NCBI GenBank assembly: GCA_020429185.1
Contig: JAGQLO010000007.1
Coordinates: 1-46,899, forward strand
Origin: Candidatus Doudnabacteria bacterium
GTDB taxonomy: Bacteria > Patescibacteriota > JABMPQ01 > JAGQLO01
Direction: 5' to 3'
Length of the DNA stretch: 46,899 bases
Below are positions 9,740-40,836 of this stretch, piece after piece. The translations under genes were made by a program, and so were the position numbers. The notes beneath the pieces are model-generated. The model worked only from the letters and a program-made list of their open reading frames with translations. It was not told the origin of the DNA and ran no database searches. Each line of letters starts with the position of its first letter. Position 1 is the first letter of the stretch.

Positions 9740-9761
9740 ACGCTTGATCGTTTACACAAGA

Positions 9762-11531: not shown

Positions 11532-11551
11532 AAAAATATTCACTAAGTACG

Positions 11552-11896: not shown

Positions 11897-11906
11897 AGAA
11901 GTCTTC

Positions 11907-12935: not shown

Positions 12936-12944
12936 GCGTATCGG

Positions 12945-13529: not shown

Positions 13530-13539
13530 AGCTACGCCA

Positions 13540-14013: not shown

Positions 14014-14070
14014 AGAAATGAATTAAGAACGTAAATTGTTCTAATGAATGCGGGAATGAGGATTCTCACC

Positions 14071-14105
14071 CCTCCCCTGAATGCTCTGAGAACATTCAGA
14101 GGAGG
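14071..14105 (-). other. Intercistronic hairpin between atpI and atpK
   Basis: CCTCC-C-CTGAATG (14071-14083) pairs with CATTCAG-A-GGAGG (14093-14105): 12 pairs with one mismatch and a 9-base loop. There is no T-tract on either strand, so it is unlikely to be a strong terminator. It sits in the only long gap (103 bases) between the ATPase head and stalk genes, directly upstream of the ring subunit gene, which must be made in excess. A role in mRNA processing or stability is inferred. Confidence 0.6.
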
Positions 14106-14116
14106 GTCGAGAAGCC

Positions 14117-21098: not shown

Positions 21099-21124
21099 AC
21101 GTGTTTTGTGTTGAAGGTGTACAG

Positions 21125-21133
21125 AGTGTAGCA
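21125..21133 (-). promoter_or_regulatory. Extended -10 promoter element TGCTACACT for the 20211-21098 gene
   Basis: The minus strand reads TGC-TACACT, with TACACT at 21125-21130. The same nonamer precedes the 25704 gene and dnaE. No convincing -35 is seen at 17 bases. Confidence 0.5.
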
Positions 21134-21177
21134 GGTTTTTTTCTTCACAAGGCAGCGAGCGCCACAACGTACATCTC

Positions 21178-21206
21178 TTTACAATCACACATATTCGTGC
21201 TATTAT
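21178..21206 (+). promoter_or_regulatory. Promoter of the DUF948-like/YtxH pair
   Basis: TTTACA (21178-21183), 17 bases, TATTAT (21201-21206). One mismatch in each box and optimal spacing. The leader before the ATG at 21237 is about 25 bases. Confidence 0.75.
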
Positions 21207-21595: not shown

Positions 21596-21895
21596 ATGTC
21601 ACACAACTGTAACGGTAACGACGCTGGTTCATTCGCCATTGGAGCACTCGTTGGTGCGGTCATTGGTGGAGTCGCTGCCCTCTTGCTTGCCCCACAGTCT
21701 GGAGAAGAAACACGCAAGCAAATTAAGTCAAAAGCGCAGGAAGCGCGTGTACGAGCTGATCTCGCGATGATGGAAGGTCGCGATCTCGCAGAATACGCGG
21801 GAGACGCTGCTCGGGACATGAAGCGCAAGGCACACCACCTCAAGCATGAAGCAAAGCACAAGCTTGAAGACATGCGCGACGGCGACAACGCCTAA
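21596..21895 (+). CDS. YtxH-like protein, 99 aa
   Basis: The family mark is a Gly-rich single TM helix, FAIGALVGAVIGGVAALLLAP, followed by QSGEETRKQIKSKAQEA. A long amphipathic Lys/Arg/Glu-rich helix then runs to the C-terminus with several His. YtxH proteins are associated with stress in Bacillus but have no established biochemical role. It forms a two-gene unit with the DUF948-like gene. Confidence 0.88.
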   Translation: MSHNCNGNDAGSFAIGALVGAVIGGVAALLLAPQSGEETRKQIKSKAQEARVRADLAMMEGRDLAEYAGDAARDMKRKAHHLKHEAKHKLEDMRDGDNA

Positions 21896-22023: not shown

Positions 22024-25000
22024 ATGCCGGAGCCACGACCGTATCAAACAACCACAAAACAACGCACAACCAGCAAAGCAGGTGTCGCGACGCTCATTGT
22101 TGCCCTCGTTGCGATTGCAGGAGGTGTAGCCGGATGGCTCGCCCTGAATGCGGTTTCACCATTGCGCGAACTTTCCGAGGATGAAGTTGCAGAATCATGG
22201 ACCGACATACCTGGAACCATTTGGGAACATCGTATTGATATTGACGGTAGCGTCTCACCTTCCGACGTGTTTACGCGTGTTGACGCCTCTTCTGGAAATC
22301 TAATTGCTGAAAACACACTTGCGATTTCACCCTGGGATGCCCCCTATCTTTCTGGTGTAGTCGGAGATACGAGCCCATCTCCTGATCAAGAAGACTCAAC
22401 TCAGGCCTTTCGTGACGGAGGCGAAGCATTCCCACACGGATCTGTCACGTCCGGTTCTCGTCCAGCATCAGAAATAGATGATCTCTCTTTCTGTCCCGTC
22501 GAGATTCGTGAAGCTCTTAGTGGAGAAGAGCGGCCCCAAGCCCGCATTGCCTTTTGGGAACAAGATGAAGAAATGTCGTTTGATCGTGTACCTAGCCTAG
22601 GATCATACGGACTGACTGGGGGTCGCCGAAGTAGCTTTAATGCAGATGCGCGCACAGGCTCCGCCTACAGTATGTCGCTTTTCGCTCCGGAATCTGGTGT
22701 GCCATTTAATGACCAAAAGAGTGTTTCACTCTCGTATTTTGCAAACATCGTATTCTTTAACGATGAAGGTCGTCGTATTCCTATCGATACCACCGTGGAT
22801 GATCGATTTGAACCTGTCTGGCGAGCAACCAACCCAAGATCACTCCTCCTGAACAACAACCCAGACAGAGCCAATGATCAAAACTGGTTCGAGTTCGTTC
22901 CGATGCGTCCTGGAGTTGTGAAAATTTCGGCTGAAATTTGTGGTTTGACCGTCTGGCGCGAGATCAACATTACACGTCAGTGGTCCGGGCTCGACAACCT
23001 TTCAGGGTGGCCAGCTACCAACGTGCCCGCATTTGACCCAGAGATCATGACGCGTCGCGTCTTTGAGCCTTCCATCTCGGAAGATCTCGTTGAGAACATG
23101 CAAGAAGGTGTGAATGACGAACGTGGATTGTCTACATTCCCGTTCCAATATCAACTTTCTCTCCCCTCTGACCAATATCGAGGTACAGGGCAAGTTGGTG
23201 CCTATCTTGGCGATCCTGACTATCTCGAGCACCTCGAGAGTGATTATCTCGTTGAGGGCTGCACAAGCATGGATGGTGGAATCACATGGGACTGGTGTGA
23301 TGAAGCAACTGTGTCTGAGCTCGCGGGAGAACAACGTATCAGCCTCTTCACACTTGAAGGAGAGTTTATACGTCCAGAGACTATTGAAACTATCGATCCC
23401 GTTCTCCGTCTTTCTATTTCGGTACGAAAGCCTGATCGTGTGACCTATCAATCACATGAAACGAATGAGCATATTCTTCCGGGAGGTCGACGTGCACTTA
23501 CTCTCGATCACCTCTCCCCTCACCCATACCTCAAGGGAACCTTTCGAGGTGGTCCTCCGGAGGCTGATGACGCAAGTAAGGTTTGGGGTACAGAACACGG
23601 CCTCGATGGCAACGAATCTGCCATCCGAGATCTAAAGGATCGTTACCTCTCGGTTTCGAGTCGCCCTGAACAGCCAGGAGCAAACAAAGTGGTGTACTGG
23701 AATGGTCTTGATGCACCATTTACAGACGAGGATCGCGCACGTGCTGAATACAGCATTTCGGTTCCTGCCGGATACGAAATCCCAGACTCACTCGAGGAAA
23801 ACGATGCGTACATGCGCAAAGTCGGAACAAGCCTGACGATCGCGTATGGTGCACGTGAAGGCGATGTTGTCATTGAGGAATGTCGCGGGTATCCAAACGA
23901 AAACCCAGACCTCCGTCCAGAGACCTACTCCATCCTCGATACGCTCGGCCAAGGTGCAAATCCATTTGAACCACGCCAGATTCGAACCTACTGTGAGAAG
24001 CTCGAAGCGAACGAGCCCGGTGCTGTTGCCGCCTCTACGGTCGTCACTGTTATTCGACCCGCACAAGATCAACGAGATCCATCGAACTGCGTTGAAGAAA
24101 ATGATATATCTGCTGGATGTGCGCGCTATGGACGCAAGCCAAGTGCCGATGGTTTTGAGAATGCCGACACCGACATGACGACAGCCCTCATCCTTCCTGC
24201 AAACTCGCTCGATGTCCAAACAACAACGCTACAGGTGTTAATTCCAGATCGGGATATCTCCGACCAAGGAGAAATCGATGACCTTATTGACGATGTTGAA
24301 GACGACAATGCTGCAGATGATCTCGCCGACGAGTTTCCTGGGTTCGTTGACCCACTTAATCCCCCAGGACAGCCTGGTATTGACCCTGTGAATCCTGGAC
24401 TCGATCTTCCAGACTTTGATCCAAACCTCGTACCTGGTGGCATCCTTAACCCAGGCGATATGGATTTGAATGCGGAAATCATTCATCGAGGTGCAACGCG
24501 CGCCATCGTTCGGTTCGATGATCCCCGAACAACGCCCGAACAACAAGCAGAAGACTTGACCTTCTTGTACGCTCCGACAATTCCCGGAGTTGAGCCAGGT
24601 GCAGAAGGACACCAGTCTGCAACGATCTACTCAGATGATCAGGGTTTCTATGTTGTCCTCGAAGGGCTCGAAGGCGGTGGGTTTGACGACGTGGATGAAG
24701 TTGCAGGATCTGAAGATGAACTCGTCAATGGGCGTAAAGACTACTACTTCCAGGTGCGTGCTGGAGAGTTTACAACGCAGATCTTGAGCTTCTTCACCCT
24801 CAATCGTCGACAAGCCATCTTGTACATCTACGGCCTCGTATTTGGAGACGAGTTCTCTGCAGGATTTGAAGAAGAAATCGCGGATGGCTTTGACTACACA
24901 GCACTCCGTGGTGGTGGCCCCGCCTTCTTCTACGATCCACCAGCACAGGAGCCGCTCTCACTCGCAGGTGTGAAATATGCCCTCATGAATGACCCACTTC

Positions 25001-25566
25001 GTGAGTTTGATATTCGACTCTTCTTCACCGCACGTGCAACGTCTGTAGAAGAGTCGGTGGAGCAGCTGTATCGCGTGATCTTTGACCGTATCTATCCAGA
25101 AGATCTTACACAGATCTGTGATGCCACCGGTTGCGCCTTCTGGGCAGAACAGGTTGAACAGAACAATGCAGACCGCATTACCCTCTCCGGTGTGAAATTT
25201 GCTCTCTTCAACAGTACGGAGTACCGCAATAGCGTTCGTGCAACCTCTTCGAACGAAGAACTTACAAATGCCGAACTTGCCTACCAATATGTCCTCCGTC
25301 GTGGCGCAGACCTAGCGGGACGTGAAAACCTTGCAGAACAAGGTGATAACGTGAACGAGCTACGACTCTTACTTGCGCAGAGTGATGAATTTGAAGAACG
25401 TCTTGGAGACACAGAAGAAGACGAGGGTCGTCGTGCCGCGATCAACGAGCTCTATGAAGGTGTCTTCGGTCGTGCCTCCGATGTAGAGGGTCTGGACTAC
25501 TGGACCTCGACACGAAGCGATCTCGAAGTGCTCGAAATACGTGACCTGTTCTTGAAGGGTGAATAA
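22024..25566 (+). CDS. Giant single-pass surface protein 1 with DUF4214-like C-terminus, 1180 aa
   Basis: The basic cytoplasmic tail (RPYQTTTKQRTTSK) precedes one TM helix (about 22-41), leaving about 1140 extracytoplasmic residues. An Ig-like region ends near 320 (FVPMRPGVVKISAEICGL). Near 415 is an Asp-box motif, SMDGGITW, flanked by two Cys. An Asp/Pro-rich linker (about 745-815) runs into an FN3-like domain (IIHRGATRAIVRFDD, then YVVLEGLEGGG and YYFQVRAG). The last about 220 residues are helical DUF4214-like units: GVKYALMNDPLREFDIRLFF, LYRVIFDRIY, and a canonical NELYEGVFGRASDVEGLDYW. Its last two units lack the Cys residues of proteins 2 and 3. DUF4214 is best known in S-layer and secreted proteins; attachment or surface-layer function is inference. 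It has its own promoter and terminator. Confidence 0.82.
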   Translation: MPEPRPYQTTTKQRTTSKAGVATLIVALVAIAGGVAGWLALNAVSPLRELSEDEVAESWTDIPGTIWEHRIDIDGSVSPSDVFTRVDASSGNLIAENTLAISPWDAPYLSGVVGDTSPSPDQEDSTQAFRDGGEAFPHGSVTSGSRPASEIDDLSFCPVEIREALSGEERPQARIAFWEQDEEMSFDRVPSLGSYGLTGGRRSSFNADARTGSAYSMSLFAPESGVPFNDQKSVSLSYFANIVFFNDEGRRIPIDTTVDDRFEPVWRATNPRSLLLNNNPDRANDQNWFEFVPMRPGVVKISAEICGLTVWREINITRQWSGLDNLSGWPATNVPAFDPEIMTRRVFEPSISEDLVENMQEGVNDERGLSTFPFQYQLSLPSDQYRGTGQVGAYLGDPDYLEHLESDYLVEGCTSMDGGITWDWCDEATVSELAGEQRISLFTLEGEFIRPETIETIDPVLRLSISVRKPDRVTYQSHETNEHILPGGRRALTLDHLSPHPYLKGTFRGGPPEADDASKVWGTEHGLDGNESAIRDLKDRYLSVSSRPEQPGANKVVYWNGLDAPFTDEDRARAEYSISVPAGYEIPDSLEENDAYMRKVGTSLTIAYGAREGDVVIEECRGYPNENPDLRPETYSILDTLGQGANPFEPRQIRTYCEKLEANEPGAVAASTVVTVIRPAQDQRDPSNCVEENDISAGCARYGRKPSADGFENADTDMTTALILPANSLDVQTTTLQVLIPDRDISDQGEIDDLIDDVEDDNAADDLADEFPGFVDPLNPPGQPGIDPVNPGLDLPDFDPNLVPGGILNPGDMDLNAEIIHRGATRAIVRFDDPRTTPEQQAEDLTFLYAPTIPGVEPGAEGHQSATIYSDDQGFYVVLEGLEGGGFDDVDEVAGSEDELVNGRKDYYFQVRAGEFTTQILSFFTLNRRQAILYIYGLVFGDEFSAGFEEEIADGFDYTALRGGGPAFFYDPPAQEPLSLAGVKYALMNDPLREFDIRLFFTARATSVEESVEQLYRVIFDRIYPEDLTQICDATGCAFWAEQVEQNNADRITLSGVKFALFNSTEYRNSVRATSSNEELTNAELAYQYVLRRGADLAGRENLAEQGDNVNELRLLLAQSDEFEERLGDTEEDEGRRAAINELYEGVFGRASDVEGLDYWTSTRSDLEVLEIRDLFLKGE

Positions 25567-25611
25567 GCAATCGTTTCCCATTTAGAGCGGGTACAGATCC
25601 GAGCTCGACAT

Positions 25612-25635
25612 AACCGCCCATCCTGGGCGGTTATT
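25612..25635 (+). terminator. Terminator of giant gene 1
   Basis: AACCGCCC-ATCCT-GGGCGGTT (25612-25632) followed by ATTCGTT. A strong 8-bp stem with a weak T-tract. Confidence 0.7.
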
Positions 25636-25637
25636 CG

Positions 25638-25666
25638 TTGGTCGAACACTATGTGCATGCTACACT
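25638..25666 (+). promoter_or_regulatory. Promoter of giant gene 2
   Basis: TTGGTC (25638-25643), 17 bases, TACACT (25661-25666) with TGC immediately before the -10. It begins six bases after the previous terminator stem. Confidence 0.65.
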
Positions 25667-25703
25667 TCTGTGTCCGTCTATTTGTGTTTTCTTCTTGGTT
25701 CGT

Positions 25704-28700
25704 ATGGCAAAACAAACTCTTGCCCCGACCGCAACGCGGTCACGCTCTCGTACCGGCGCGATTGTCGGCGTCGTTGCCCTCGTTGCGCTTGGCGCGGGTG
25801 GATTCGCACTTCTCAACGCTCTTAATCCTGGTCTGTTTAATTTAGACCGAGCCACTGGAGAAGGAATGCAAACCATCGAGGTGACGTTTGACGAAAACAC
25901 GTTCCCCTCAACCGACCAATCCCTTCAACTCGCAGACGGAGAGCTCACACTTCTGACGGACTCATCTCCCGACGGACCTTCTGCTGTTTACACTGCTTCT
26001 CGCACCGGCGAACCTATTCAAGTCAACGAAGTCGACTTCTGTGATGGTGATGCACAACCTGTAGAACTTCTCGTGTACCACAACAACGAAGACGTCACGA
26101 ACATTCGAGACGAAGGCGGCTCCATTGAAATCCAAGTGCCATTTGGAGAAGACGTGGTTCCCTTTTCTGACTACGATCAAGATATCTTGGACGCCCGTTC
26201 ATTCTCTGTGGTTGTTATCAACGCGGATGGTAGCAAAGTCGAAAGTCCTTACGCGTACCGGGGCCGCTCCACACACCCAAACAATGCTCTGCTCTATCAA
26301 GATCTCGGGGCGTCTTCAGGCCGCTTTGTTGTACAGCCGATCAGTCACACCATTTTACAAGGAGGCAATGTTCAACTTCACTTCTCCGCTTGTGGCCTTT
26401 CAGCGGTCATTCCATTGGATGTTTCGTTTGACTTCCTCATTGAAGATTTGAATAACGTTCAACACGCGTTCGACACACACAATCCGTCTCGCTATCTCGA
26501 CACACGATTCCTGACGGGAGCGCTGTCTTCTGTAACGATCACAGATTATCCAAATGATCGTGCCATTACTGGAGTTGAGGCGGAAGTTGTGATCCCCGCA
26601 GAAATGATTAATGAAGACGATCAGCTGTACGGAGAGGTTGAGTTCTGTGCTTCCCACAATGCAGGTGGAACCTGGCAATGCCGGACGCTTGGCGAAGAAG
26701 ATCGTGACGCCCGTAACCGGGACCGATTCCTTGTTGATCTTTCCTTCCGCTCCGACGCAGAAAATGCAGACAACCGCCTGATGATCGGTCTTCGTCTTAC
26801 ACAGGACGATAACCTGTCACGCTTTGGTGTCGCGGCACCACTCATGTCTTCGAGCTCCGGCATTCGTTCACTCTTTGCTTCTGCCGTAAACGAAACAACC
26901 ACCCTCGAACCCGTTGAAAAGCAGTTTGTGAAGGCGCAAACGACCGCAGCAACGGCTGGTGCCTACGCAGATGCCCTGGAGGCACAGAAAGTGTTGTTAC
27001 AAGCAGCTCTCCCGGACGAGTCAGACTCATTGAACGTTATTACGCAAAACATCGATAGCGCTGTTCAACAACTGGGCATCATTGAGGGCGTCTACGGCGG
27101 ATACGCGGAAGGCTACATCACCGAAACAAAGCTTTCAGCTACTGAAATCACCAAGGACTTGCCAGAGCTCGAGCTGATACAAGCAGAAGAACCTGCGCTC
27201 ATTGATTCGTACAATAACCTCACTACGGCCACAGATCTCGTACAAGGCAACGCGAAAGAGCTTCAGCTCCTTGCATCTGACAACTTCGTAAGCGACTCAG
27301 AACTCACGACATCGCTCCTCAAGTCTCTTGAAGTCTCAACCGGTATAACATCTATTTCCCTCACTACCACAGCAGATTCAATTCAAGATCTTAACGGTGT
27401 CTCGGACCAGCCAAATGTGAAGGGTGTCTACATCGAGGACGTCCTGAAAGATACATCAGCACTCTTTACCTCGATTACCTCAGACACGGAGAATGTTCTG
27501 AAGTCACTCTCGGTTGTGACAGACGCCGGTGAACAAAACATCTTCACTGGACCAACAACGTCTCCATCTAACGAACTCATTCAGGATGCCGTTTCTTCGC
27601 TTCAAGAAGTACAGGACGCATCTGCTGAACTCCGAAGCCTCTTCTCACCTAACGGGATTCGCGTTGTAGATGCTCAAGACATCACATTTGATGCCCCACT
27701 CGGAGATGTGGGCATTGGAGAAGATGTTGGCATTGTTTCCGTAAACGACCTCAATGACCAACTGTCGGGAAGTCTTGGAATTATTGCAACAACTGTGAGC
27801 GATCCAGCTTTCTCAGGTGAAGTTCTCACCGTATCGGAAGCCCTACAGGGTCTCAATGCAGAAATCTCTGGATCTACCTCAAATCTCGCGATCGCAGATG
27901 GCAACATTAACTTCGGCAGTGTAGAAATCGGTGGAAATGCCCTTCAACGAAATCGTCTCGTCGGAATGATTGCTGACACGAGACAGAATTCTCTACAGCT
28001 TCTGAACAACTTTGAAGGGTTCTTGTTCGCGACACTCACAGACCTCAACCCAACTGATACACCTGCTCGCATGGTGTTCTACAAGAATGATTTCCAGCCC
28101 TTTGAAGACGAGCTGACGCTTGCTGACTGGGAATGGTCGCTCCAAGGAAGTGCCCATACGCTCAATCCTGCCACACATCTCTCTGGAGAAGAGCCACTTA
28201 CCGGAATCATGCGCATCTTTGGTGCAGACGACTTCGTTCGTGACACCGCAGGACCTGGTGTTGATCTCCTGCGAAATGATGATGCGCCCGTTGCCAGCAT
28301 GGACTGGCTCGATGTTACCTATACGACGAGCGAAGGCATGACTGCAGCGCTCTCCCCTCTTCGTCTTGTTACGCTTCCCACCTCACGCGTGGGTGTAGAA
28401 TCGGTCACACTTACTGTCCGCACCCAGGAACCTGCAGAGCCAATCGAGGAAGAAGTCGTTGTTCCGGACCCAGATCCCTTGCCAATCCCACCCACCTGTC
28501 ACGAGCGCAACTTAGAGTTTGGTCAAAGTCCGACAGGCCCTCCATTCGTTGTCTGTGGTGATACCTGTGAAGAGCGAAACGCCTACCGCCTTGAGTACGC
28601 AGACGAACTCGCTCCACAAGATCGCGTAGCAGAAGTCTGTGACGAAGAGGTGCCTGCAGACCCTGAGGTTCCTGAGGACACGGTTGACATTATCGAAGAT

Positions 28701-30053
28701 CTCGAAGAAGAGGCGCAGACGTGTGAGCAAGAACGAAGCCAACGACTCGAAGCCGGAGAGGACCCAAATAACATTCCACTCTGCACACCGGTTGATATTC
28801 CAGAGCACGTACAAAATACAGAAGACGACTTCCTTGTGTCGTACACACTGGAACACCGTGACTACCATCGAGTAATTGTCGGTCTTGAGTTTGGAGCACC
28901 ATACGTAGACGCCTGTGAAGAAAATCCTTCCGCTATTGCCTTCCGTTGGGGCGAAGCTGGAAGCACCCTCTCTGAAACAGCGACCGTTCACTACGACGCC
29001 AAGAACCGCCCAGACCAGCGCTGCTATGCCGTTCTGCGTGGGCTAAAAGGTGGTCTCCCAGAAGGAACTGACGAGGGCAACGTGAAGAATGGTCGCGGTC
29101 GCTACGAGTTTGCCGTTGCGCTCGACAATAACACCTCGAGACGCCAGGAGATCCGCACACTAAACCGCACCATGTCTGTTTTGTACTACCACTGTCTCGT
29201 ATATGGAGAACTCTGTGCGGAAGTCACGAATCACGGAACACTTGAAAGTGTGAAGAGTGCCAACCTCCCTCGCACGAGCGGCGTGGAGTGGTGGACGAAT
29301 CCGCAGGCGTTTAATGCAAACGTAAATCCTGTACACCCATCTGGCATCAAGTTTGCCATGATGACGGACCGACGCTTTAACGAGTTCTCTGATCGTCTCT
29401 TCTTTGCGGGACAAGAAGGCAAAGCAGCTGGCCTCGAGGGACTCTCGGATGACACGCTTAAGAAGGTCATTGCGCAAGCCTATATTCCTGTTTTTGACCG
29501 CTTATTCGACGACTGTATTCGCCGAGCCGATTGTTCGTCTGACCAGGGTGGAGTGAACTTCTGGTTTGACCAGATGCGTACCATTCCTGAGGTTCACCGC
29601 ATCGACCAAGACGGTGTGATCTACGCCATGTTCATCTCTGAAGAAGGACAAGGAAACTACCTGGCGCTCGCGGGCGGTGGACAAGATCAGTGTGAAGCCC
29701 TGGGAAGCTACAGCTACCTACGTGGATTGCGACGCGCTGCTGAATCTGGAGGTGCGCAAAACATCGCAAACCAAGAATGTGGCCAGCACGGTAGCGCACA
29801 AGCTGATCTCGACGCCATGATTCGAGCGCTTGCCCAAAGCGACGAGAAGGAAAACAACCTGCAAGAGATTGAGCAGAAGTTCAGCTCAGAGGCAGACGCC
29901 TGCTCAGGTCGTCGCGCTGCTGTGACGGAGATCTACCAGAGCTGTTTCGGACGAGCCTCTGACACAGAGGGAGTTGATTACTGGGCTTGTTCGCAGACTG
30001 ACATTCCAGTTCTGGAGCTCAATGCTCGATTCTGCGCCGAAGGAGAGCGCTAG
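25704..30053 (+). CDS. Giant single-pass surface protein 2 with helical insert and Cys-rich linker, 1449 aa
   Basis: It starts at MAKQ (25704); an open frame to 25638 runs into the promoter. The basic tail TATRSRSRTG precedes a TM helix at about 18-38. An Ig-like region comes next, then the shared module with RYLDTRFLTG, an Asp-box SHNAGGTW (near 318) and LRLTQDDNLSRF. Residues about 395-760 form a Ser/Thr/Leu/Gln-rich helical insert absent from the other three. A beta region ends VGVESVTLTVRTQEP. A Cys-rich acidic linker (about 930-1030) carries CGDTCEERNAY and a Cys pair ending NIPLC. The FN3-like domain begins LEHRDYHRVIVGLEFG, with VLRGLKGG. The rest (about 1157-1449) is DUF4214-like, ending in EIYQSCFGRASDTEGVDYWAC. 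Largest of the four. Function unknown; surface location inferred from topology and domains. Confidence 0.82.
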   Translation: MAKQTLAPTATRSRSRTGAIVGVVALVALGAGGFALLNALNPGLFNLDRATGEGMQTIEVTFDENTFPSTDQSLQLADGELTLLTDSSPDGPSAVYTASRTGEPIQVNEVDFCDGDAQPVELLVYHNNEDVTNIRDEGGSIEIQVPFGEDVVPFSDYDQDILDARSFSVVVINADGSKVESPYAYRGRSTHPNNALLYQDLGASSGRFVVQPISHTILQGGNVQLHFSACGLSAVIPLDVSFDFLIEDLNNVQHAFDTHNPSRYLDTRFLTGALSSVTITDYPNDRAITGVEAEVVIPAEMINEDDQLYGEVEFCASHNAGGTWQCRTLGEEDRDARNRDRFLVDLSFRSDAENADNRLMIGLRLTQDDNLSRFGVAAPLMSSSSGIRSLFASAVNETTTLEPVEKQFVKAQTTAATAGAYADALEAQKVLLQAALPDESDSLNVITQNIDSAVQQLGIIEGVYGGYAEGYITETKLSATEITKDLPELELIQAEEPALIDSYNNLTTATDLVQGNAKELQLLASDNFVSDSELTTSLLKSLEVSTGITSISLTTTADSIQDLNGVSDQPNVKGVYIEDVLKDTSALFTSITSDTENVLKSLSVVTDAGEQNIFTGPTTSPSNELIQDAVSSLQEVQDASAELRSLFSPNGIRVVDAQDITFDAPLGDVGIGEDVGIVSVNDLNDQLSGSLGIIATTVSDPAFSGEVLTVSEALQGLNAEISGSTSNLAIADGNINFGSVEIGGNALQRNRLVGMIADTRQNSLQLLNNFEGFLFATLTDLNPTDTPARMVFYKNDFQPFEDELTLADWEWSLQGSAHTLNPATHLSGEEPLTGIMRIFGADDFVRDTAGPGVDLLRNDDAPVASMDWLDVTYTTSEGMTAALSPLRLVTLPTSRVGVESVTLTVRTQEPAEPIEEEVVVPDPDPLPIPPTCHERNLEFGQSPTGPPFVVCGDTCEERNAYRLEYADELAPQDRVAEVCDEEVPADPEVPEDTVDIIEDLEEEAQTCEQERSQRLEAGEDPNNIPLCTPVDIPEHVQNTEDDFLVSYTLEHRDYHRVIVGLEFGAPYVDACEENPSAIAFRWGEAGSTLSETATVHYDAKNRPDQRCYAVLRGLKGGLPEGTDEGNVKNGRGRYEFAVALDNNTSRRQEIRTLNRTMSVLYYHCLVYGELCAEVTNHGTLESVKSANLPRTSGVEWWTNPQAFNANVNPVHPSGIKFAMMTDRRFNEFSDRLFFAGQEGKAAGLEGLSDDTLKKVIAQAYIPVFDRLFDDCIRRADCSSDQGGVNFWFDQMRTIPEVHRIDQDGVIYAMFISEEGQGNYLALAGGGQDQCEALGSYSYLRGLRRAAESGGAQNIANQECGQHGSAQADLDAMIRALAQSDEKENNLQEIEQKFSSEADACSGRRAAVTEIYQSCFGRASDTEGVDYWACSQTDIPVLELNARFCAEGER

Positions 30054-30070
30054 GATTTCCGAGCCGTTCA

Positions 30071-30099
30071 CAAAAACGCCGCACACTGCGGCGTTTTTG
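30071..30099 (+). terminator. Terminator of giant gene 2
   Basis: A perfect 13-bp stem (30071-30083 with 30087-30099, loop CAC) whose outer part is A5/T5. The T-tract coincides with the possible -35 of the next promoter. Confidence 0.85.
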
Positions 30100-30122
30100 T
30101 TTCCACTGACGTGTAGTATACT
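30094..30122 (+). promoter_or_regulatory. Promoter of giant gene 3, overlapping the preceding terminator
   Basis: TATACT (30117-30122) with TTTTTG (30094-30099) at 17 bases. The -35 lies wholly inside the terminator T-tract. The -10 is good; the -35 is weak on its own. Confidence 0.55.
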
Positions 30123-30175
30123 TGCCTTACTTTATCTGCATGGGCGTTGCCCAGCATCGATTTACACATGCCTGT

Positions 30176-33100
30176 ATGGCGGAAGATCTTCAACCTTCTC
30201 GAATCACGCCACCAGTAACACCAACACAAACACGCTCTCGTGCAGGAATCGGCATTGCAATTGCCGTTCTTGTTGCTGTTGGACTTGGTGGTCTCATCTA
30301 CCTTAATGCTATTGGACGCCTCCCCGGCTTTCCCGCTACCGGACAAGACCAACTTGTCGAAGACTTCGAGGCAGATGCGCAATTTACTGCCCAAGATGCA
30401 CATGTCATCCAAGAGAATGGAGTCCTGTGGCTTAATACCTCAAGTGATCCCTCCCTACCAACAAGTCGCTACGTGACTCGTCCAGATGTCGCATTAGACA
30501 CACCCGCAACATTTGACGCCGTTCCTCTTCCTGTAGATCTGTGTACGTACACTGACTCGGACATCGAGAATGCGACTATTTTTGTTGAACGCAATGGAGT
30601 ACGTATTGAAGACGGAGATGTTGTGGAGGTCCGCATTCCATTTGGAGACTCCCCAGCCCAGTACCATGAACTCACAGACGCACAACGTGCGGAACTAGAG
30701 CTGACAGCCACACTTGGCGGAGATGCCGCAGGAAATGTGCTGTTTGAACAGCCTGCACTACGCTTTGAGACAGCCTCATCGCAAATCGCTCTCCTTGCCC
30801 AAGTTGATACAGATGATCTCGACACGACACAGCAAGGCATGATTCAACCTGTTACAGACGGTCTTACGCAGGCACGCATTTCGGGCTGTGGAGATGTACT
30901 GGAGTTCACGCTTCAGATTGTGTTTGAAGATGGCCCAAATGGTGAACGCGGTTCCAAGGCGTACGCAAACACCACGAATCTTGATACGCGCTACCTAGAA
31001 GGCTGGGTGGTATCTGATGTGATTACGACTGACTACGCCGCAGCAGGACGCACCTTTACCGACGTTGGTGTCACGCTTACGTTGCCAGAAGAGATGCTTG
31101 GACCTCAGGCACTTGATGGACCTATCGCTCTTGGTCTTCGAGGCACGATTGAAATGCTCGCCTCTGCTGACGGAGGTCAAACATGGAAGCGACCACGCCG
31201 TGCAACTTCATACGTAATTGGAGATGTTCGTGAGGAACGAGAACTTGAATATGATCTCGCCTTCAAGTTCGATGAACCAGGAACTGAGCTTGTGTACGCA
31301 GTACGCCTTGTACAAGACGACAACCTTTCCCGATTTAGCGATAACCCTCTCGCTATCTTCCAGTGTGACGACGGGTCCCAGGTGGATGATCTTGCCGACT
31401 GTCCAGAAGTGGTTCCTGTTGTGTTTGAATGTGAAAATGGACAGCAGGTTGCATCACCAGAAGACTGTGTTGATACAGCCCCCCCTGCCAACGCCATTGG
31501 ACAGAACCCGGACTCTGCCCTATCAGGCTTCTCGATTACTCGTTCAGACAACGTCTTTTCAATTCTCGATCGTGAACCAGGCATCATTCAGGTTGCGTCA
31601 CGCCCCGTTGATGTAATCGACATGCGACTGAACGAGCCACTTTTAACGCCGCTTGAGATTGTTGAATCGACCGTCATCGACTTGAACTCTGAGAGCGCAT
31701 TCGAATTTGCCCTTTCGAGTCCATCACAAGGCATTGAGGCCGATGCAGAAGCTGTTTTCTGGGCAATCGCTGAGCATGGAAACCCAGCACAACTCGTTGT
31801 TGATCCTGCAAACGAAAATGAAGATGGATTCTCACCAACCGAGGTCCTCTTTGAAGACATCGAGACAGGATTGCAGAGTATTCAACCGGGTCGATCCACC
31901 ACCCTCTCTGCCCTCCAAGACTTCGAAGATCGCAAGGCAGGTCTGTACACGCTCTTAGGTTCCGGCGCGCGCTTTGGCATTCAGTCTGTTCGCTCAGACG
32001 ATCTCACCATCCTTGCGAACCCACCCACACGCGTTGGAATCGATGACATTCGGTTCACCCTTAAAACACAGGAAGAGGACGTTCCGGACCAACAAATCGG
32101 TGAGCTGACATGCGAAGAAGAGAACCAGCAAATCATTGATAACGGTGGTGTTCCTGGGTTCCCTTGTGGCGACACGTGTGAAGAGCGCAACCAGTACCGC
32201 GAAGACTTCAATCTTGGAGGACGCCCTGAGATCTGTGCTGCGCTGAGTTGTGAGGAGCGTAATGACTATATTTCAGAATATGGCATTGATGCCTTCCCCT
32301 CTCCTTGCGGAAACACCTGCGAGGAGCGCAATGCATCGCGCATAGAACTTGGTATTGAAGACGTTGACCCTCTTGAACAGTGTGATGAGCCGATAATAGA
32401 CACTACCTGCCTCACTGAGCGTGCTCGTCGTATTGAAGCCGGTGCAGATCCAAATGATATTCCTCTCTGTGACCCACAGGACGACGATATCGTTGTCGAC
32501 ACTGGAGATGATGAATTGTTAATCGACGTTCGATTCCAGCACCGCGACTATCACCGAACCATTGTTGGAATGACGTTCAGTGAAGGTCATGCGGACGCTT
32601 GTACAACACCAGAGAACATTACGTTCACATGGGGAGAAGCAGGAGGGGCACGTGAAAACACACGCGAAGTGTATTACCTCGAAGACAATCCTGAAGGCTT
32701 CCAATGTTACACCGTTCTACGAGGATTGAATGGTGGGATGCCCGAAGGCACAAACAGTGAAAACTACGACAACGGTCGTGGTGGATATGAGGTCCAAGTT
32801 GCGACAGCTAACGCCACTTCGGATGTCTATCCATTCGAAACATTGAACCGCACACAGAGCATCCAGTACTCCCACTGCCTCGTCTATGGAGAGATGTGTG
32901 ACACCTACGCAACTGTCGAAAACATGGAAGACTACCTGGCACGCGAACAAGCGGGTCGAAAAGAAGGACTCGCCTTTTGGAATGCTCCAGAGCGCCAGAA
33001 CGACTCACTCGAACCTGTACACCCAGCTGGTGTTCGTTACGCCATGATGACGGACGAGCGTTTCCGCGAGTTCTCAGAACGATTCTTTGCAACTGTTGAA

Positions 33101-33748
33101 TCAGAGGGAGATGACTTGAGTGTCGGTATCGCCCGTTCCTACCGCCCAATTCACGACCGACTCCCAGATGTCCCTTACCCAGACGGAAAGACTCGTCCAT
33201 GTATTACAGGCTGTTTCTACGACGACGCGGGTGTTGAGTTCTGGCGTGAACAAGTGGAATCTATTGCAGAAGTCGACCGTATCGATGTGCCGGGCTACAT
33301 CTACGCGGCGTACATCTCCGAAGAAGGAAAGGCAAACTACCTCAACCTGTCTCAAGACTCCGATGTTGCACTTAGCTCGCCAGGAAAATGTGTTCCGGCA
33401 GCAAACTATGCCTACCTTCGAGCCCTCCGCCGTGCTGCAGACACTCCAGGCGCATTGAACATTGCTCAGCAGGAATGTGATCAATACGCCTCGTCGGAGC
33501 TTGAGCTCGATGCCATGATTCGACGCTTGTCACAGAGTCAAGAAAAGGCGGACAGACTTGATGAGGTCGTGAACAAGTACAAGGACACACCAGGGTCCTG
33601 TGATGGACGCGCCCAGGCCGTCTCTGAGATCTACCAAAGCTGCTTTGGTCGCGCTCCAGACGTGGAAGGCGTAAACTACTGGGCTTGTAGCCAGCGCCAG
33701 CTGAGCGTACATGATCTGAACGCTCAGTTCTGTGCCGAGGGCGAGTAA
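30176..33748 (+). CDS. Giant single-pass surface protein 3 with tandem Cys repeats, 1190 aa
   Basis: It starts at MAED (30176), with basic tail TQTRSRAG and TM at about 22-42. The shared module shows NLDTRYLEGW, an Asp-box SADGGQTW (near 332) and VRLVQDDNLSRF. Two tandem short repeats of type F-x-C-(D/E)-x-G-x-Q-V-x(4)-D-C follow (about 394-432). A beta region ends RVGIDDIRFTLKTQEE. A Cys-rich acidic stretch (about 643-768) holds four CEE/TCEERN-type units and one ending DIPLC. The FN3-like domain starts FQHRDYHRTIVGMTF and has VLRGLNGG. The C-terminal about 300 residues are DUF4214-like with a Cys-rich last unit (EIYQSCFGRAPDVEGVNYWAC). Closest to protein 2 in the C-terminal half. Function unknown. 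Confidence 0.82.
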   Translation: MAEDLQPSRITPPVTPTQTRSRAGIGIAIAVLVAVGLGGLIYLNAIGRLPGFPATGQDQLVEDFEADAQFTAQDAHVIQENGVLWLNTSSDPSLPTSRYVTRPDVALDTPATFDAVPLPVDLCTYTDSDIENATIFVERNGVRIEDGDVVEVRIPFGDSPAQYHELTDAQRAELELTATLGGDAAGNVLFEQPALRFETASSQIALLAQVDTDDLDTTQQGMIQPVTDGLTQARISGCGDVLEFTLQIVFEDGPNGERGSKAYANTTNLDTRYLEGWVVSDVITTDYAAAGRTFTDVGVTLTLPEEMLGPQALDGPIALGLRGTIEMLASADGGQTWKRPRRATSYVIGDVREERELEYDLAFKFDEPGTELVYAVRLVQDDNLSRFSDNPLAIFQCDDGSQVDDLADCPEVVPVVFECENGQQVASPEDCVDTAPPANAIGQNPDSALSGFSITRSDNVFSILDREPGIIQVASRPVDVIDMRLNEPLLTPLEIVESTVIDLNSESAFEFALSSPSQGIEADAEAVFWAIAEHGNPAQLVVDPANENEDGFSPTEVLFEDIETGLQSIQPGRSTTLSALQDFEDRKAGLYTLLGSGARFGIQSVRSDDLTILANPPTRVGIDDIRFTLKTQEEDVPDQQIGELTCEEENQQIIDNGGVPGFPCGDTCEERNQYREDFNLGGRPEICAALSCEERNDYISEYGIDAFPSPCGNTCEERNASRIELGIEDVDPLEQCDEPIIDTTCLTERARRIEAGADPNDIPLCDPQDDDIVVDTGDDELLIDVRFQHRDYHRTIVGMTFSEGHADACTTPENITFTWGEAGGARENTREVYYLEDNPEGFQCYTVLRGLNGGMPEGTNSENYDNGRGGYEVQVATANATSDVYPFETLNRTQSIQYSHCLVYGEMCDTYATVENMEDYLAREQAGRKEGLAFWNAPERQNDSLEPVHPAGVRYAMMTDERFREFSERFFATVESEGDDLSVGIARSYRPIHDRLPDVPYPDGKTRPCITGCFYDDAGVEFWREQVESIAEVDRIDVPGYIYAAYISEEGKANYLNLSQDSDVALSSPGKCVPAANYAYLRALRRAADTPGALNIAQQECDQYASSELELDAMIRRLSQSQEKADRLDEVVNKYKDTPGSCDGRAQAVSEIYQSCFGRAPDVEGVNYWACSQRQLSVHDLNAQFCAEGE

Positions 33749-33761
33749 GATGTCACTCTCA

Positions 33762-33791
33762 AAAAGACACCTCCTTCGAGAGGTGTCTTTT
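33762..33791 (+). terminator. Terminator of giant gene 3
   Basis: AAAA-GACACCTC-six-base loop-GAGGTGTC-TTTT (33762-33791). A 12-pair stem including the A/T part. Confidence 0.87.
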
Positions 33792-33816
33792 CGTTTTGCC
33801 TTATTTCTGGTATAAT
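33788..33816 (+). promoter_or_regulatory. Promoter of giant gene 4, overlapping the preceding terminator
   Basis: A perfect TATAAT (33811-33816) with TTTTCG (33788-33793) at 17 bases, the -35 again starting on the terminator T-tract. Confidence 0.62.
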
Positions 33817-33849
33817 CCAGACACTACAAACTTCTTTTTCGCACTTCGT

Positions 33850-36800
33850 ATGGCGGACGAACTCCTTTCTTCCACACAAACACTCACCCCAACACGGACC
33901 CGTTCGCGTACGCGTGCTGTTGTGGGAACTATTGCAGGACTCGCCCTGTTCTCAGGACTTGCTTTTGCTCTCGTTCGATTTGGTATTCAAGGTGACACCT
34001 ACACCGTCGTTGAGAACTTTGAATATACGAACGAACAACTAACTGCCTTCGAGTCGCCACTAGGTGACCACGATGGCTCTATCACCGCGACCGCCGAGGG
34101 CCAGCTTGTTCTCGCGACTACACCTGAGCGCCCTGAGCAACTTGCCCAGCTTCCTTTTCGCGAAAACCCAGATCTCGCGACCACACGACGCTTACCGTTC
34201 AGCCGTTCTGATCTCGATATACACTCGATCTGTACCGATAGCGAAAGAGATATCGCCCGTGGATTCCGTATTGGATTCGATAACGAAGCTATCCCTCAGG
34301 GTGGAGCAACCACTGTGTTGGCCGAAGCAGAGCCAATCGACAATCTCGGGATCAATAACCTACGTGTTCGCGCAGGAGTTGGCGCGCGAGCTATTCTTCA
34401 CCAGGTAAACTGGGAAGTATATGGACCCGGAGGTGACGTTGCCATCCAAAGTGCCCCTATTGTTGAAGGCGTTCCTTTCCCACGCCAAGTCACGTTTACT
34501 TCCACCGATCCCTCCGTCGCAATTGTATATCCGAACGGTCAGATTCTTCCTATCTCACCTGGAACGACACGTATTAGCGCGAAATTCTGTGACACGATCT
34601 CTGCCACATCGATTGTATTGACCGTGAATGAAACAAACGGTGAAGACTTCACATGGCACGCAGCAAACGCGCTCGACACTCGCTTCCTCGATGGATCAAT
34701 TACTTCAGGACCACTTTCCGCAGATCTCCCAGAAGGGCGTATTATTGAGGGCGTGGACGCAGATATCGTTGTGAACACCAGAGATTTTGATCTGTTCACA
34801 GAAGACGGCACACCAAAAGGAACCTACACGCTCTATCTCTCCGCAAATGGAGGAACAAACTGGGCAGGTCCGTATGACATTACGTCTCAGCTGACACCAA
34901 ATAACAACGTTGCGAATGTCAGCATCAACTTCCCAGAAGGTGGACAAGGCAACGACCTGCGCTATGCACTCCGCATGACGCAAGACGAGACGCTCGCACG
35001 AGTTGAAGATTCACCTATCTGGAGCGGTGTTGGTGCAGCGGTACCTACAAACTCCTCCCTTGCATCTTTGTGGGATGTGTTTGTCACACCGTTTGCCCAT
35101 GCTCAGCAAGGAATTGAACCGCGCGCCATCATCTTCGAGAACGAAGAGGAGCTCTTGGCCCTAGGACAAGGAGATCCTACTGACGTCTTGAATCTTGATA
35201 GTCTTGCCCATGTTGCTCGCACATTCGACATTACAACCTCTCAAGAAGCACTCGAATTAAGCCTAAAGGAACAGAACACACCTGAGCTCTTCACGCGAGC
35301 AACATTCGTTCCAGTCGGCACATCTCGAGATCTTGGTGTCTTCTTTGCTGCGTCGCAGAGCATTGTAAATGGTCATGAAGTCCGCAATATTGACCCAACC
35401 TGGCAGTTCACTGGAAACGGTATCGCAGCAAACATCACCACCGTTTCTTCGCGTGAAACTCTAACTCCTGTTGCAATCATCCCTACCGACGCCGTGCAAC
35501 CAGAGAACTTCCCAGAGGCGCAACTTAATGACCTCGCAAGAATTCTCCCAACACTTGAGGTAACCGGTGAACGCGTTGGATTTGCAGAGCTACGCCCCAC
35601 GATCAATTACGAAGATTTCCGAATCTCACTTAATGAGCCATCCTTCCGTCAGGTCACGGCTCCAGATGTTCGTCTCGTTGCACTCCCGGAGACAACATTA
35701 AACGTAGAGAGTATTTCCTTCTCTGCCCGCTTGACTCCAGGAGAGATTCCTCCAGCTGACGAACCAGGCGATGAACCGGTTGATCCCTGTGTTGCTGAAG
35801 TTGAAGAGCTTCGTGAACAAGGTGTCCCAGAAGAAGATCTCCCACTTTGTGAACCAGAAGAGATTGATGAAGAGTTAGAAGGAGATCTCGAAATTGACCC
35901 ACGTATCATCCATCGTGGTGAGTCAGGAGGCGGACAACGTGTCATTGTGAAGTGGAGCTACACAGATGCTGCAAAACAAGAAGAGCTTGTAGCAGCAGCT
36001 GTTGCTGGTGAGCCACTCGACGACTACGCATTCGCGTATAAGTCACAAGATGGTCCAGACGCCCTGAAGAACGTAGATGTCTACTATGATGCGCAAGATG
36101 AAGAAACGCCGTTCTACGCAGTTCTTACAGGACTGAACGGCGGGCAGACCTGTGTTGACTCTGACTTTGTACGCTGTGGTCGTGGAACGTATCTCTATCG
36201 CATCACTACAAACGGTGTTGAGTCTGACGATCTTACGTTTGAAACCCTCAACCGTTTGCAGACGATCATGTACGACTATGAGTTGATCTTTGGTGATCAG
36301 CTGCGCTCGCAGGGATTGGACGTAACAGAAATCGAAACACTCGAAGAGCTTGCAGCCGTGCAAAATGCCAACGCCGACTTGCGTGGACGTATTGAAGGAA
36401 TGCAGTTCTTCCATGACCCACGTAACCTCGATGCAGACGCTGCTTCGACCCCAATGTCTCTCTCAGGTGTGAAGTTCGCAATCATGAACGACCGACGCTT
36501 TAACGAGCACAGCTCTCGCCTCCTCGCCACAGAACAGCGTCGTGGCGTTGCACGTGCGGTAGAACACATTTACAGCGCCGTTCACGACCGTATCTACGTA
36601 GAAGACCTCTACAAGATCTGTGACGAAGTTGGTTGTGCCTTCTGGGCAGATCAGGTCACCCAAGATAACGAGGACCGCATCGATCTTGATGGTGTTGCCC
36701 TCGCTGTACTCCTTTCTGAAGAATATTCAGGAGTACAGGCTGCGATTGCTGCTGATGTCAACAAGTTCAATGCCGACTACGCCTACCAAACTGTTTTGAA

Positions 36801-37098
36801 GCGTGGTGGTGACGAAGGCGGGGTTGCAAATCTTGCGCAACAATATGGACAGTCCGACGATCCGCTCACGCAAATGCGCTACGCGCTCGCGCTCTCTGAC
36901 GAGTTCAAGAGTCGAATCAGTACAATTAGTACGGATCTCGGTCGCTCGGAAGCCATTACAGAACTGTACGAATCCTGTTTCTTCCGCGCTTCAGACGTAG
37001 AAGGTGTCGCCTACTGGTCAGAAGAACGTAGTGATCTCACCGTAGATGAGCTCCGCGTCAACTTCTGTGAAGAAGGCGAAGGAACCGGCTCCCTCTAG
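33850..37098 (+). CDS. Giant single-pass surface protein 4 with BIG2-like and DUF4214-like domains, 1082 aa
   Basis: It starts at MADE (33850), with basic tail TPTRTRSRTR and TM at about 22-43. A BIG2-like Ig domain (about 195-260) is clear: FTSTDPSVAIVYPNGQILPI followed by SPGTTRISAKFC. The shared module has ALDTRFLDG, a degenerate Asp-box SANGGTNW (near 332) and LRYALRMTQDETLARV. Next come a beta region (LNVESISFSARL), a single Cys pair in an acidic linker (about 646-668, ending DLPLC), the FN3-like domain (RIIHRGESGGGQRVIVKWSY; AVLTGLNGG), and DUF4214-like units ending in ITELYESCFFRASDVEGVAYW. Intermediate in Cys content between proteins 1 and 2/3. Surface anchoring is inferred. Confidence 0.82.
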   Translation: MADELLSSTQTLTPTRTRSRTRAVVGTIAGLALFSGLAFALVRFGIQGDTYTVVENFEYTNEQLTAFESPLGDHDGSITATAEGQLVLATTPERPEQLAQLPFRENPDLATTRRLPFSRSDLDIHSICTDSERDIARGFRIGFDNEAIPQGGATTVLAEAEPIDNLGINNLRVRAGVGARAILHQVNWEVYGPGGDVAIQSAPIVEGVPFPRQVTFTSTDPSVAIVYPNGQILPISPGTTRISAKFCDTISATSIVLTVNETNGEDFTWHAANALDTRFLDGSITSGPLSADLPEGRIIEGVDADIVVNTRDFDLFTEDGTPKGTYTLYLSANGGTNWAGPYDITSQLTPNNNVANVSINFPEGGQGNDLRYALRMTQDETLARVEDSPIWSGVGAAVPTNSSLASLWDVFVTPFAHAQQGIEPRAIIFENEEELLALGQGDPTDVLNLDSLAHVARTFDITTSQEALELSLKEQNTPELFTRATFVPVGTSRDLGVFFAASQSIVNGHEVRNIDPTWQFTGNGIAANITTVSSRETLTPVAIIPTDAVQPENFPEAQLNDLARILPTLEVTGERVGFAELRPTINYEDFRISLNEPSFRQVTAPDVRLVALPETTLNVESISFSARLTPGEIPPADEPGDEPVDPCVAEVEELREQGVPEEDLPLCEPEEIDEELEGDLEIDPRIIHRGESGGGQRVIVKWSYTDAAKQEELVAAAVAGEPLDDYAFAYKSQDGPDALKNVDVYYDAQDEETPFYAVLTGLNGGQTCVDSDFVRCGRGTYLYRITTNGVESDDLTFETLNRLQTIMYDYELIFGDQLRSQGLDVTEIETLEELAAVQNANADLRGRIEGMQFFHDPRNLDADAASTPMSLSGVKFAIMNDRRFNEHSSRLLATEQRRGVARAVEHIYSAVHDRIYVEDLYKICDEVGCAFWADQVTQDNEDRIDLDGVALAVLLSEEYSGVQAAIAADVNKFNADYAYQTVLKRGGDEGGVANLAQQYGQSDDPLTQMRYALALSDEFKSRISTISTDLGRSEAITELYESCFFRASDVEGVAYWSEERSDLTVDELRVNFCEEGEGTGSL

Positions 37099-37118
37099 AG
37101 CCTCCTCTCCCCTCTGTG

Positions 37119-37144
37119 AAAAACAGCCCTTATGGGCTGTTTTT
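37119..37144 (+). terminator. Terminator of giant gene 4
   Basis: AAAAACAGCCC-TTAT-GGGCTGTTTTT (37119-37144), a perfect 11-bp stem including A5/T5. Confidence 0.9.
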
Positions 37145-37147
37145 CTA

Positions 37148-37164: not shown

Positions 37165-40100
37165 ATGACTTCATCTTCGACACCACTTTCAGACACTCCA
37201 ACCCAAGCGGACCCGTCTCCGTTTGTTCATTTGCATGTCCATAGCCACTACAGCCTTCTTTCGGGTCTTTCAAAGATGGATCCCCTCCTTGATGCCGTCC
37301 AAGAACACGGTATGGATACCGTTGCCCTCACAGACTACGGCTCTATGTACGGCGCCATCGAGTTTTACAAAGCCTGCCAGAAACGTGAGATCAAACCCAT
37401 CATGGGCCTAGAGGTATACGTCGCGCCATTCAAGTACACACAAAAACGTCCAAAGATCGACACGCACCCAAGTATGCTCGTGCTGTTGGCGCGAAATATG
37501 ACGGGCTATAAGAACCTCATCCAACTCACAACGAAGGCACACATGGAGGGATTCTATTACAAACCCCGTGTCGACGAAGATCTCCTTGAGGAGCACAAAG
37601 AAGGACTTATCGCACTCTCAGGCGGACTTGGTGGAAACATTCCACGACTCCTTATTACCGGAGAGTACGACAAAGCAAAGGAAACAGCGTTGCAGTATCA
37701 GAAGCGCTACGGCGAGGGCCATTTCTATTTAGAGCTTCAAATCCACCCAACACTCGACAACCAAGCTGTTGTGAATGAAGGTCTTTTGAAGATTGCAGAT
37801 GAAACCGGCATTCCCCTGGTTGCCACCAATGATGTCCACTATCTCGTCAAAGAAGACGCGGAGGCTCAGGACATTGTGACCTGCATTCAGCAACAGCGCA
37901 TGCTGAATGACCCAAAGCGTCGTTCGTTCGCAGAAGAAAACTACGCACTACGTTCGATCGATGAAATGGTCGAGCTCTTTACAGACTACCCAGAAGCGAT
38001 TGCCAATACCCGCAAGATCGCTGACATGTGTACTGTGGAAATTACTCTCGGCGAAACTCAACTTCCCTACTTCCCTGTTCCAGAAGGTTCTTCTGAAGAT
38101 GCAGAGTTGCGCACACTTTGTGAAAATGGCTATCAGGATCGTTATGGCGTTCCCTATTCTGAGGCCCCAGACGAACACAAGGAACGTCTCGACTACGAGC
38201 TCGACATTATTAAGCAAACAGGTTTCCCTGCCTACTTCTTAATCGTGCAGGACTTCGTGAACTGGGCGAAGGAACAAGGCATCATTGTAGGTCCAGGTCG
38301 TGGTTCTGCTGCAGGAAGTTTTGCGTCGTATCTCCTGAAGATCGTTGACCTTGACCCTATCAAGTACGACCTCCTCTTTGAGCGATTCTTGAACCCAGAA
38401 CGTGTCCAGATGCCCGACATCGACCTCGACTTTGCAGATACACGGCGTGATGACGTGATTCAGTATGTGACCGAAAAATACGGTGCTGACCGCGTAGCTC
38501 ACATCATTACGTTCGGAACCATGGCTGCAAAAGGTTCCGTGCGAGACGTAGGTCGCGTGATGGGCTTCCCATACGAAACCTGCGACCGGATCTCAAAGAT
38601 GATCCCAATGTTTACGTCGCTCAGCGACTCCATGGAACAGGTGCCAGAACTTAAGACCATGGTAGAGAGCGATCCACAGATTAAGCGTCTTACAGACGCT
38701 GCGCTAAAAGTAGAAGGAAATGCGCGTCATGCCTCTACCCATGCCTGCGCCATGGTGATTACAAAGGACCCACTCACTGAGAGTGTTCCACTACAGCACG
38801 GCTCCCATGAGGGTGACATCGTGACACAGTTCTCCATGAAGCCCATTGAAGATTTGGGCATCCTGAAGATTGACTTCCTTGGACTGAAGAACCTTTCGAT
38901 CATTGAGCGCTGTATCGATATTGTGCATGCCACACACGAAGAGCGCATCGACCTCAAGGCGATCCCCATGGATGACGCAAAGACATTTGAACTCCTTCAA
39001 GCCGGAGGAACAACAGGTGTCTTCCAGCTCGAGTCTTCTGGAATGAAGCGTTATCTCAAACAGCTGAAACCGACCGAGTTTGAAGACATTATCGCTATGG
39101 TGTCGCTGTATCGCCCAGGTCCAATGGAGTGGATTCCTGACTATATCGCAGGCAAGCACGGCACCAAGAAGGTGAAGTATGTTCATCCTGTTCTTGAGCC
39201 AATTCTAAAGGACACATACGGCGTTGCAATTTATCAGGAACAGGTCATGCGTATTGCACGTGACCTCGCCGGGTTTACCCTTGGTGAAGCCGATGTGCTC
39301 CGAAAGGCCATGGGTAAGAAGATTAAGGAGCTTCTCGACGAACAAAAAGAAAAGTTCATTCAGGGTTGTGTCGATAATCGCGTTGATAAAGCGATTGCTG
39401 AAAAAGTTTTCTCATTTATTGAGCCGTTTGCCGGATATGGATTCAACCGTTCCCACGCGGCGTGTTATGCCATGATCTCCTACCAAACGGCGTACCTGAA
39501 GGCCCACTACCCTTCTGAGTTCATGGCTGCCCTTCTCGCAGCCGACCAGGAAAACATGGACCGCGTGACGATTGAGATCACCGAGTGCGAGGCCATGGGC
39601 ATTAACGTACTCGCTCCAGACGTGAATGAGTCTTTCAAGGATTTTGCGGTAGTTCCCCGCGAAGGCGAAGGCGCATGGCCAATCCGTTTTGGACTTGCTG
39701 GTATTAAAAACCTTGGTTCAGACACCATCGATGCCCTTATCGGAGCACGTAAAGAAGGCGGCCCTTTTGCCGATTTCGAAGATTTTGCACGCCGCGTCCC
39801 TATCGCATCGTTCAACAAACGCGGTCTCGAGTCGCTCGCCAAGTCTGGAGCCCTCGATGCCTTTGCAGAACGTGCACAAATTCTCGCGTCGATGGACACC
39901 ATCTTGACGTACATGAAGCAGGTCCAAAAAGCTGCGAACACTGGCCAAAAAGACCTCTTCGCCGCACTAGGAGACGAAAGTGCCACTCCACAACTCAAGC
40001 TCACTTCTGTTACGCCAGCTCTCAAGGCAGAGCGACTTGCCTGGGAAAAAGAGTTGCTCGGTCTGTATGTTTCCGCACATCCTGCTGATGAATATAAGCC

Positions 40101-40791: not shown

Positions 40792-40821
40792 TCAGTACAT
40801 ATAGCCACAATGCACTTGGTG

Positions 40822-40830
40822 TGGCATACT
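40822..40830 (+). promoter_or_regulatory. Extended -10 promoter for the 40837 gene, predicting a leaderless mRNA
   Basis: TGG-CATACT ends 6 bases before the ATG at 40837. A possible -35 at 17 bases is poor. Placement again suggests transcription starting at the start codon. Confidence 0.4.
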
Positions 40831-40836
40831 TTTTCT

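Follow-up and report, generated by a model that had tools for sequence, protein, structure and literature searches.

What do four very long, related proteins, encoded one after another just ahead of dnaE, do for a bacterium with less than a megabase of DNA? The window that we analyzed is a stretch of 46,899 nucleotides, the whole of contig C42 in a Candidatus Doudnabacteria assembly (G000; 908 kb in 44 contigs, ∼96% complete). Sampled members of the phylum have genome sizes of 0.5–2.0 Mb, with G000 at ∼0.9 Mb, and the organism is probably host-dependent with a small genome. Four complete genes lie head to tail on the forward strand between a small YtxH-like gene (21596..21895, +, 99 aa), which forms the left border of the array, and dnaE (37165..40791, +, DNA polymerase III alpha), which forms the right border. 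The products are referred to as p1 (22024..25566, 1180 aa), p2 (25704..30053, 1449 aa), p3 (30176..33748, 1190 aa), and p4 (33850..37098, 1082 aa), and the four lengths given in the first-pass annotation were exact. Upstream TTG extensions of p2–p4 in the raw ORF list, which overlap promoter or leader sequence, were left out. The array spans 15.1 kb, or ∼1.7% of the genome.

The four proteins had been described as paralogous surface proteins of one architecture, and this was supported by BLASTP and by their shared layout. The C-terminal ∼400 residues are conserved (p1–p3 are 36–43% identical to p4) and form a module of an FN3-like sandwich and at least three DUF4214 helical units, encoded on the forward strand at 24460-25563 (p1), 28830-30050 (p2), 32516-33745 (p3), and 35887..37095 (p4). 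Pairwise E-values for this part were 1e-35 to 1e-137. The N-terminal parts are far less conserved, at 21–27% identity, with E = 5e-24 for p2/p3, 1e-8 to 1e-10 for p3/p4 and p2/p4, and just 0.008 for p1/p4. Judged by these alignments, the homology of p1–p4 goes far beyond chance, and the paralogue pairs appear to be p2/p3 (43% over 600 aa) and p1/p4 (37% over 456 residues). In p1 a basic tail and a membrane helix (residues ∼15–47) are followed by an Ig-like part (∼290–374), a Pro/Asp-rich linker, the FN3-like domain (813–925), and DUF4214 units to the C-terminus. The p2 protein follows the p1 layout with an extra stretch (∼420–830) and a Cys-rich linker, and its sister p3 has a Cys-rich linker with repeated CEERN-type units; cysteines number 22 in p2, 28 in p3, and 10 each in p1 and p4, where this linker is largely missing. 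In p4, whose nearest relative is p1, a BIG-like domain (213–258, by Pfam), an FN3-like domain (682–798), and DUF4214 units (∼900–1077) were assigned.

The domain map proposed earlier stood in outline, although a fourth DUF4214 unit and the entire stalk are still tentative. Against the Pfam cut-off of 23.2 bits for DUF4214 (PF13946), p1 (37.4) and p4 (32.6) scored above and p2 (19.2) and p3 (19.5) just below, yet the latter two are homologous to p1 and p4. Family searches located three units apiece in p1 and p4, some with weak scores, and a further first unit was seen by predicted helices only. By hhalign (probability 97.8%, E 1e-12), the p1–p4 module aligned over about three units with C-terminal DUF4214 blocks from two sources, a Campylobacterales MAG and a different genome of the phylum. 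The FN3-like domain had no Pfam match, but it was borne out by fold: the model of the C-terminal module (pLDDT 56) is a beta sandwich followed by an all-helical block, and the best PDB match of the sandwich was the FN3 domain sDscam FNIII3 (probability 1.00, E 0.004), with other FN3/Ig-type domains among the top matches. The Ig-like part passed a Pfam cut-off in p4 only (PF22359, BIG-like, 27.1 vs. 27.0). A further module placed between the Ig-like part and the linker of all four proteins had no clear copy in p1 by pairwise search. The AlphaFold model of full-length p4 (mean pLDDT 37.5) was interpretable at the C-terminus only.

In agreement with the membrane helix of the first-pass annotation, each protein has a single strong hydrophobic helix near its N-terminus, which we place at residues ∼15–47. 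A C-terminal anchor is absent, and p2 has one further marginal hydrophobic stretch at 227. Since no signal-peptidase motif was seen after the helix in p1–p4, we infer that it is an uncleaved anchor, oriented N-in/C-out by the positive-inside rule. The short positive tail and the uncleaved-looking helix in this orientation strongly support a predicted ∼1000–1400 residues per protein outside the membrane. The Thr/Arg tail ascribed to three of the four was confirmed in p2 (TATRSRSR), p3 (TPTQTRSR), and p4 (TPTRTRSR), and p1 has a weaker form, TTTKQRTTSK. We rejected the idea that this tail is an array-specific sorting signal, because it recurs on two unrelated proteins elsewhere in G000. Both are single-helix proteins with similar Thr/Arg/Ser tails: one on contig C4 (13239-14702) has EQTRSGSR, and one on contig C39 (31803-33788) has TQTRTGSR and two copies of a 'GRILLQVEENGEAWYV...RYYMGRPADAFALMR' domain. 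Lysine depletion in p1–p4 (∼1.0–1.6% K) is marked, but it was dismissed as a special trait, at least 21 other proteins of this Arg-rich genome being more extreme.

Each gene had also been called a separate transcription unit. RNA folding against shuffled sequences gave a terminator-type hairpin 3′ of p1 (25610..25634, +, z −3.5) and intrinsic terminators 3′ of p2 (30070..30100, +, z −3.8), p3 (33762..33791, +, z −3.6), and p4 (37118..37145, +, z −5.9). Upstream of p1–p4, −10-like boxes were picked out by eye (TATGAT, TACACT, TATACT, and TATAAT, respectively); these were not among the listings of a consensus promoter scan. With hairpins after all four genes and boxes seen by eye, independent transcription is well supported on the termination side and suggested on the initiation side. 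The p4 terminator hairpin covers the ATG with which dnaE begins in the ORF list, and the dnaE start was therefore put, probably, at 37165.

The C-terminal module was searched as a profile in 380 genomes of the phylum, only seven of which belong to the class. One other genome was positive, G004, of the same order and a different family; the module was not found in the 378 other sampled genomes, and within the class it is missing from 5 of 7. The same profile matched one distant Campylobacterales locus and nothing else in the whole genome-contig collection. It gave no match in viral contigs, which leaves a phage origin of the array unsupported. When the C-terminal model was searched against virus structures, the single match at E < 0.001 was to a tail protein of a Colwellia phage; its rmsd was 44, and we took it as meaningless.

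The first-pass annotation would have been undermined by the lack of such an array in every related genome; G004, however, has array genes upstream of dnaE. On its contig C88 the module ends just 5′ of a 214-aa two-helix gene, followed by dnaE. Contig C73 carries, in this order, the C-terminus of one module protein, a 203-aa gene (beginning with MPRTKTKAKAK plus a helix), and the N-terminus of another such protein (beginning with MQTKAKTKLSTRTRT plus a helix). The gene order on C73, together with the module on C88, indicates that tail, helix, and module occur together in tandem genes in this second family, the two contigs being unlinked in a fragmented assembly (170 contigs, 76% complete). The five other class genomes have FtsW, a 300-aa gene, a DUF948-like and a YtxH-like gene, and then directly the 214-aa gene and dnaE. 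Because the YtxH-like gene adjoins the 214-aa gene and dnaE in these relatives, the array appears to occupy one site near dnaE that is empty in them. A search of G000 for the 214-aa gene gave no copy. A common origin of the G000 and G004 arrays was not demonstrable from a dnaE tree, in which the two are not neighbors and the deep branches are unresolved, so that either one gain followed by losses or two gains may account for them.

DUF4214 itself is uncommon in the phylum (14/380 genomes). On contig C48 of genome G025, three tandem signal-peptide proteins (3243-11747) each end in a very similar four-unit DUF4214 block, and a recombinase-like ORF (2078-3109) adjoins these genes. The Campylobacterales MAG has two tandem proteins in which an LVIVD propeller or a subtilase precedes a DUF4214 block like that of G025. 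Since the tandem proteins of these two genomes carry different passengers, it appears that tandem DUF4214 proteins recur and that the block travels with unrelated partners. One of the Campylobacterales blocks also matches the phycobilisome linker family PF00427 (31.0 bits, above cut-off), and the p1–p4 profile weakly matches ApcE (E 0.24), which gives a hint that the DUF4214 fold may be a docking fold. The array has no pigment proteins, and the similarity is far too weak for membership in the linker family.

What the array is for was considered first in terms of abundance, since a surface lattice was one of the functions put forward in the first-pass annotation. Subunits of an S-layer-like lattice could well be large, acidic, extracellular, and present as several paralogues, as p1–p4 are, and the BIG-like domain of p4 weakly matches an S-layer protein in the PDB (4uid, E 0.009). 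Codon usage speaks, if indirectly, against it. With the ribosomal protein and elongation factor genes of G000 as the reference, codon adaptation in this genome is real: CAI is 0.63–0.81 for those genes, ∼0.73 for V-ATPase A and B, and 0.74–0.75 for two long ORFs that presumably encode RNA polymerase subunits, against a mean of 0.59 (695 ORFs of at least 150 aa). The values of p1 (0.614), p2 (0.614), p3 (0.634), and p4 (0.629) lie at the 59th–73rd percentile, near the genome average. A dominant S-layer protein should rank close to the top, which makes p1–p4 improbable candidates for the most abundant proteins. Neither SLH nor another known S-layer anchoring domain was found in p1–p4 by Pfam or NCBIfam, the stalk lengths differ among the four, and the array is absent from five of the seven class genomes and nearly all sampled genomes of the phylum. 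We consider the lattice quite improbable. Codon adaptation is very low in a 972-aa Cys-rich protein with CDGxDDDCDGxxDE motifs and 0.3% Lys (contig C7, 18310-21225), whose contig seems to be foreign to the bin.

Host attachment or polymer binding is the most likely use of p1–p4, and we put the chances at about even that they are long single-pass adhesins, that is, attachment fibers whose stalks differ but whose distal head is shared. Each protein would be inserted by Sec; the stalk, made of divergent beta domains of variable length and linkers, would carry the head through peptidoglycan and any surface layer; and the FN3-like and DUF4214 head would bind a partner, which could be a second cell, a surface polymer, or some other protein. 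The four would thus provide one head type on different stalks at moderate, separately set levels. The adhesin reading draws support from the architecture and homology, the FN3-like fold, the DUF4214 matches, the separate units, and the fixed locus, as well as from the average CAI, which does not suggest bulk protein, and from precedent in Patescibacteria. It sits less well with the position of the head as the conserved end; in adhesins exposed to pressure from a host, it is often the end binding the ligand that varies. In addition, FN3 and Ig-like domains are generic, and AlphaFold confidence for the modeled stalks is very poor.

Conservation of the head, the most conserved part of p1–p4, would be natural in the main rival to the adhesin reading, a set of membrane-to-envelope tethers. 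Here the N-terminal helix would be fixed in the membrane and the distal DUF4214 block would attach to the outer layer of the same cell, be it peptidoglycan, surface polysaccharide, or S-layer, and the four proteins would both span and space the envelope. In segmented filamentous bacteria, DUF4214 is described as a likely surface-anchoring domain (PMC12780176), and a C-terminal four-unit block common to different passengers (subtilase, LVIVD propeller, BNR repeats) in signal-peptide proteins elsewhere is what one expects of an anchoring module. However, the distance from helix to head varies between ∼640 and 1000 residues, which fits poorly with an envelope of constant thickness, searches of p1–p4 gave no known envelope-binding domain, and the other DUF4214 proteins examined carry the module without a membrane anchor. 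Such tethers are possible but doubtful. A narrower version, in which lineage-specific tethers would dock on the cell's own outer layer in the manner of phycobilisome linkers and the length of the stalk would determine spacing or contact type, strikes us as unlikely. It is very improbable that p1–p4 are receptors or depolymerases, whose stalk part with weak sialidase similarity would bind or cut a surface glycan while the head mediates assembly: the N-terminal profile did weakly match sialidase A in the PDB (E ∼0.2), but these matches, the only ones obtained, are at chance level, and no catalytic family was found in p1–p4 by Pfam or NCBIfam.

The attachment-fiber reading has close company in the literature. 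For Vampirococcus lugosii (PMC8080830) and the Absconditicoccaceae epibiont S. methylophilicida (PMC13059738), giant membrane proteins that bear FN3 among other adhesion domains have been described and proposed to act in host recognition. In the parts of these reports considered here, such proteins are, like p1–p4, very long, membrane-localized or secreted, and equipped with FN3 and other adhesion domains; p1–p4 have 1082–1449 aa, one N-terminal helix each, a BIG-like domain (p4, Pfam), and an FN3-like domain by fold comparison only. The described giants are mostly larger (the ten longest of Vampirococcus have 1392–4163 aa), and the same parts mention neither DUF4214 nor a tandem array, whereas the head of p1–p4 is FN3 plus DUF4214 and the four-member array has a fixed site. 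DUF4214 likewise occurs in multiple surface proteins of segmented filamentous bacteria (PMC12780176), and in tandem genes of G025 and the Campylobacterales MAG. The DUF4214 proteins inspected elsewhere have a signal-peptide-like start and no FN3 match beside the block; p1–p4 additionally carry an N-terminal membrane anchor. Giant ORFs of Omnitrophota (PMC10066038) also encode large proposed adhesins of small host-dependent bacteria; they exceed 20 kb and often have many membrane helices and few annotated domains.

To call the array an undescribed system, as was done at first, is an overstatement, given what is already reported in these sources. A limited search of open-access full texts found no description of an N-terminal anchor, an FN3-like domain, and a DUF4214 block combined in a multi-gene array by dnaE. 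Therefore, the best reading is that p1–p4 are a variant, in a new combination, of a kind of giant membrane-anchored surface protein that Patescibacteria are already known to have. Little is settled about how small, probably host-dependent bacteria hold on to partners, and a recognizable, expressible binding module is missing from most of their surface proteins. The ∼400-residue FN3-DUF4214 head is a defined piece, common to four paralogues and to a second family with the same locus, that could serve as an expressed probe. Because p1–p4 already have a membrane anchor, they also offer a setting in which anchoring can be told apart from binding for DUF4214, a domain without a known function.

Other genes of the window were noted in passing. 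Downstream of dnaE, a basic-tailed single-helix protein (40810-42207) weakly matches Baseplate_J (PF04865, 22.9 bits); it lies near dnaE in several relatives, and the match is present in 7/7 class genomes. Divergent from the array is a 325-aa gene with an FxLYD domain (20211-21188; NF038353, 38.3 bits), and a gene of similar size adjoins FtsW in the class. Two tandem DUF3048 genes (2877-5807) stand beside the V/A-type ATPase operon (5834-16141), which is syntenic in the class.
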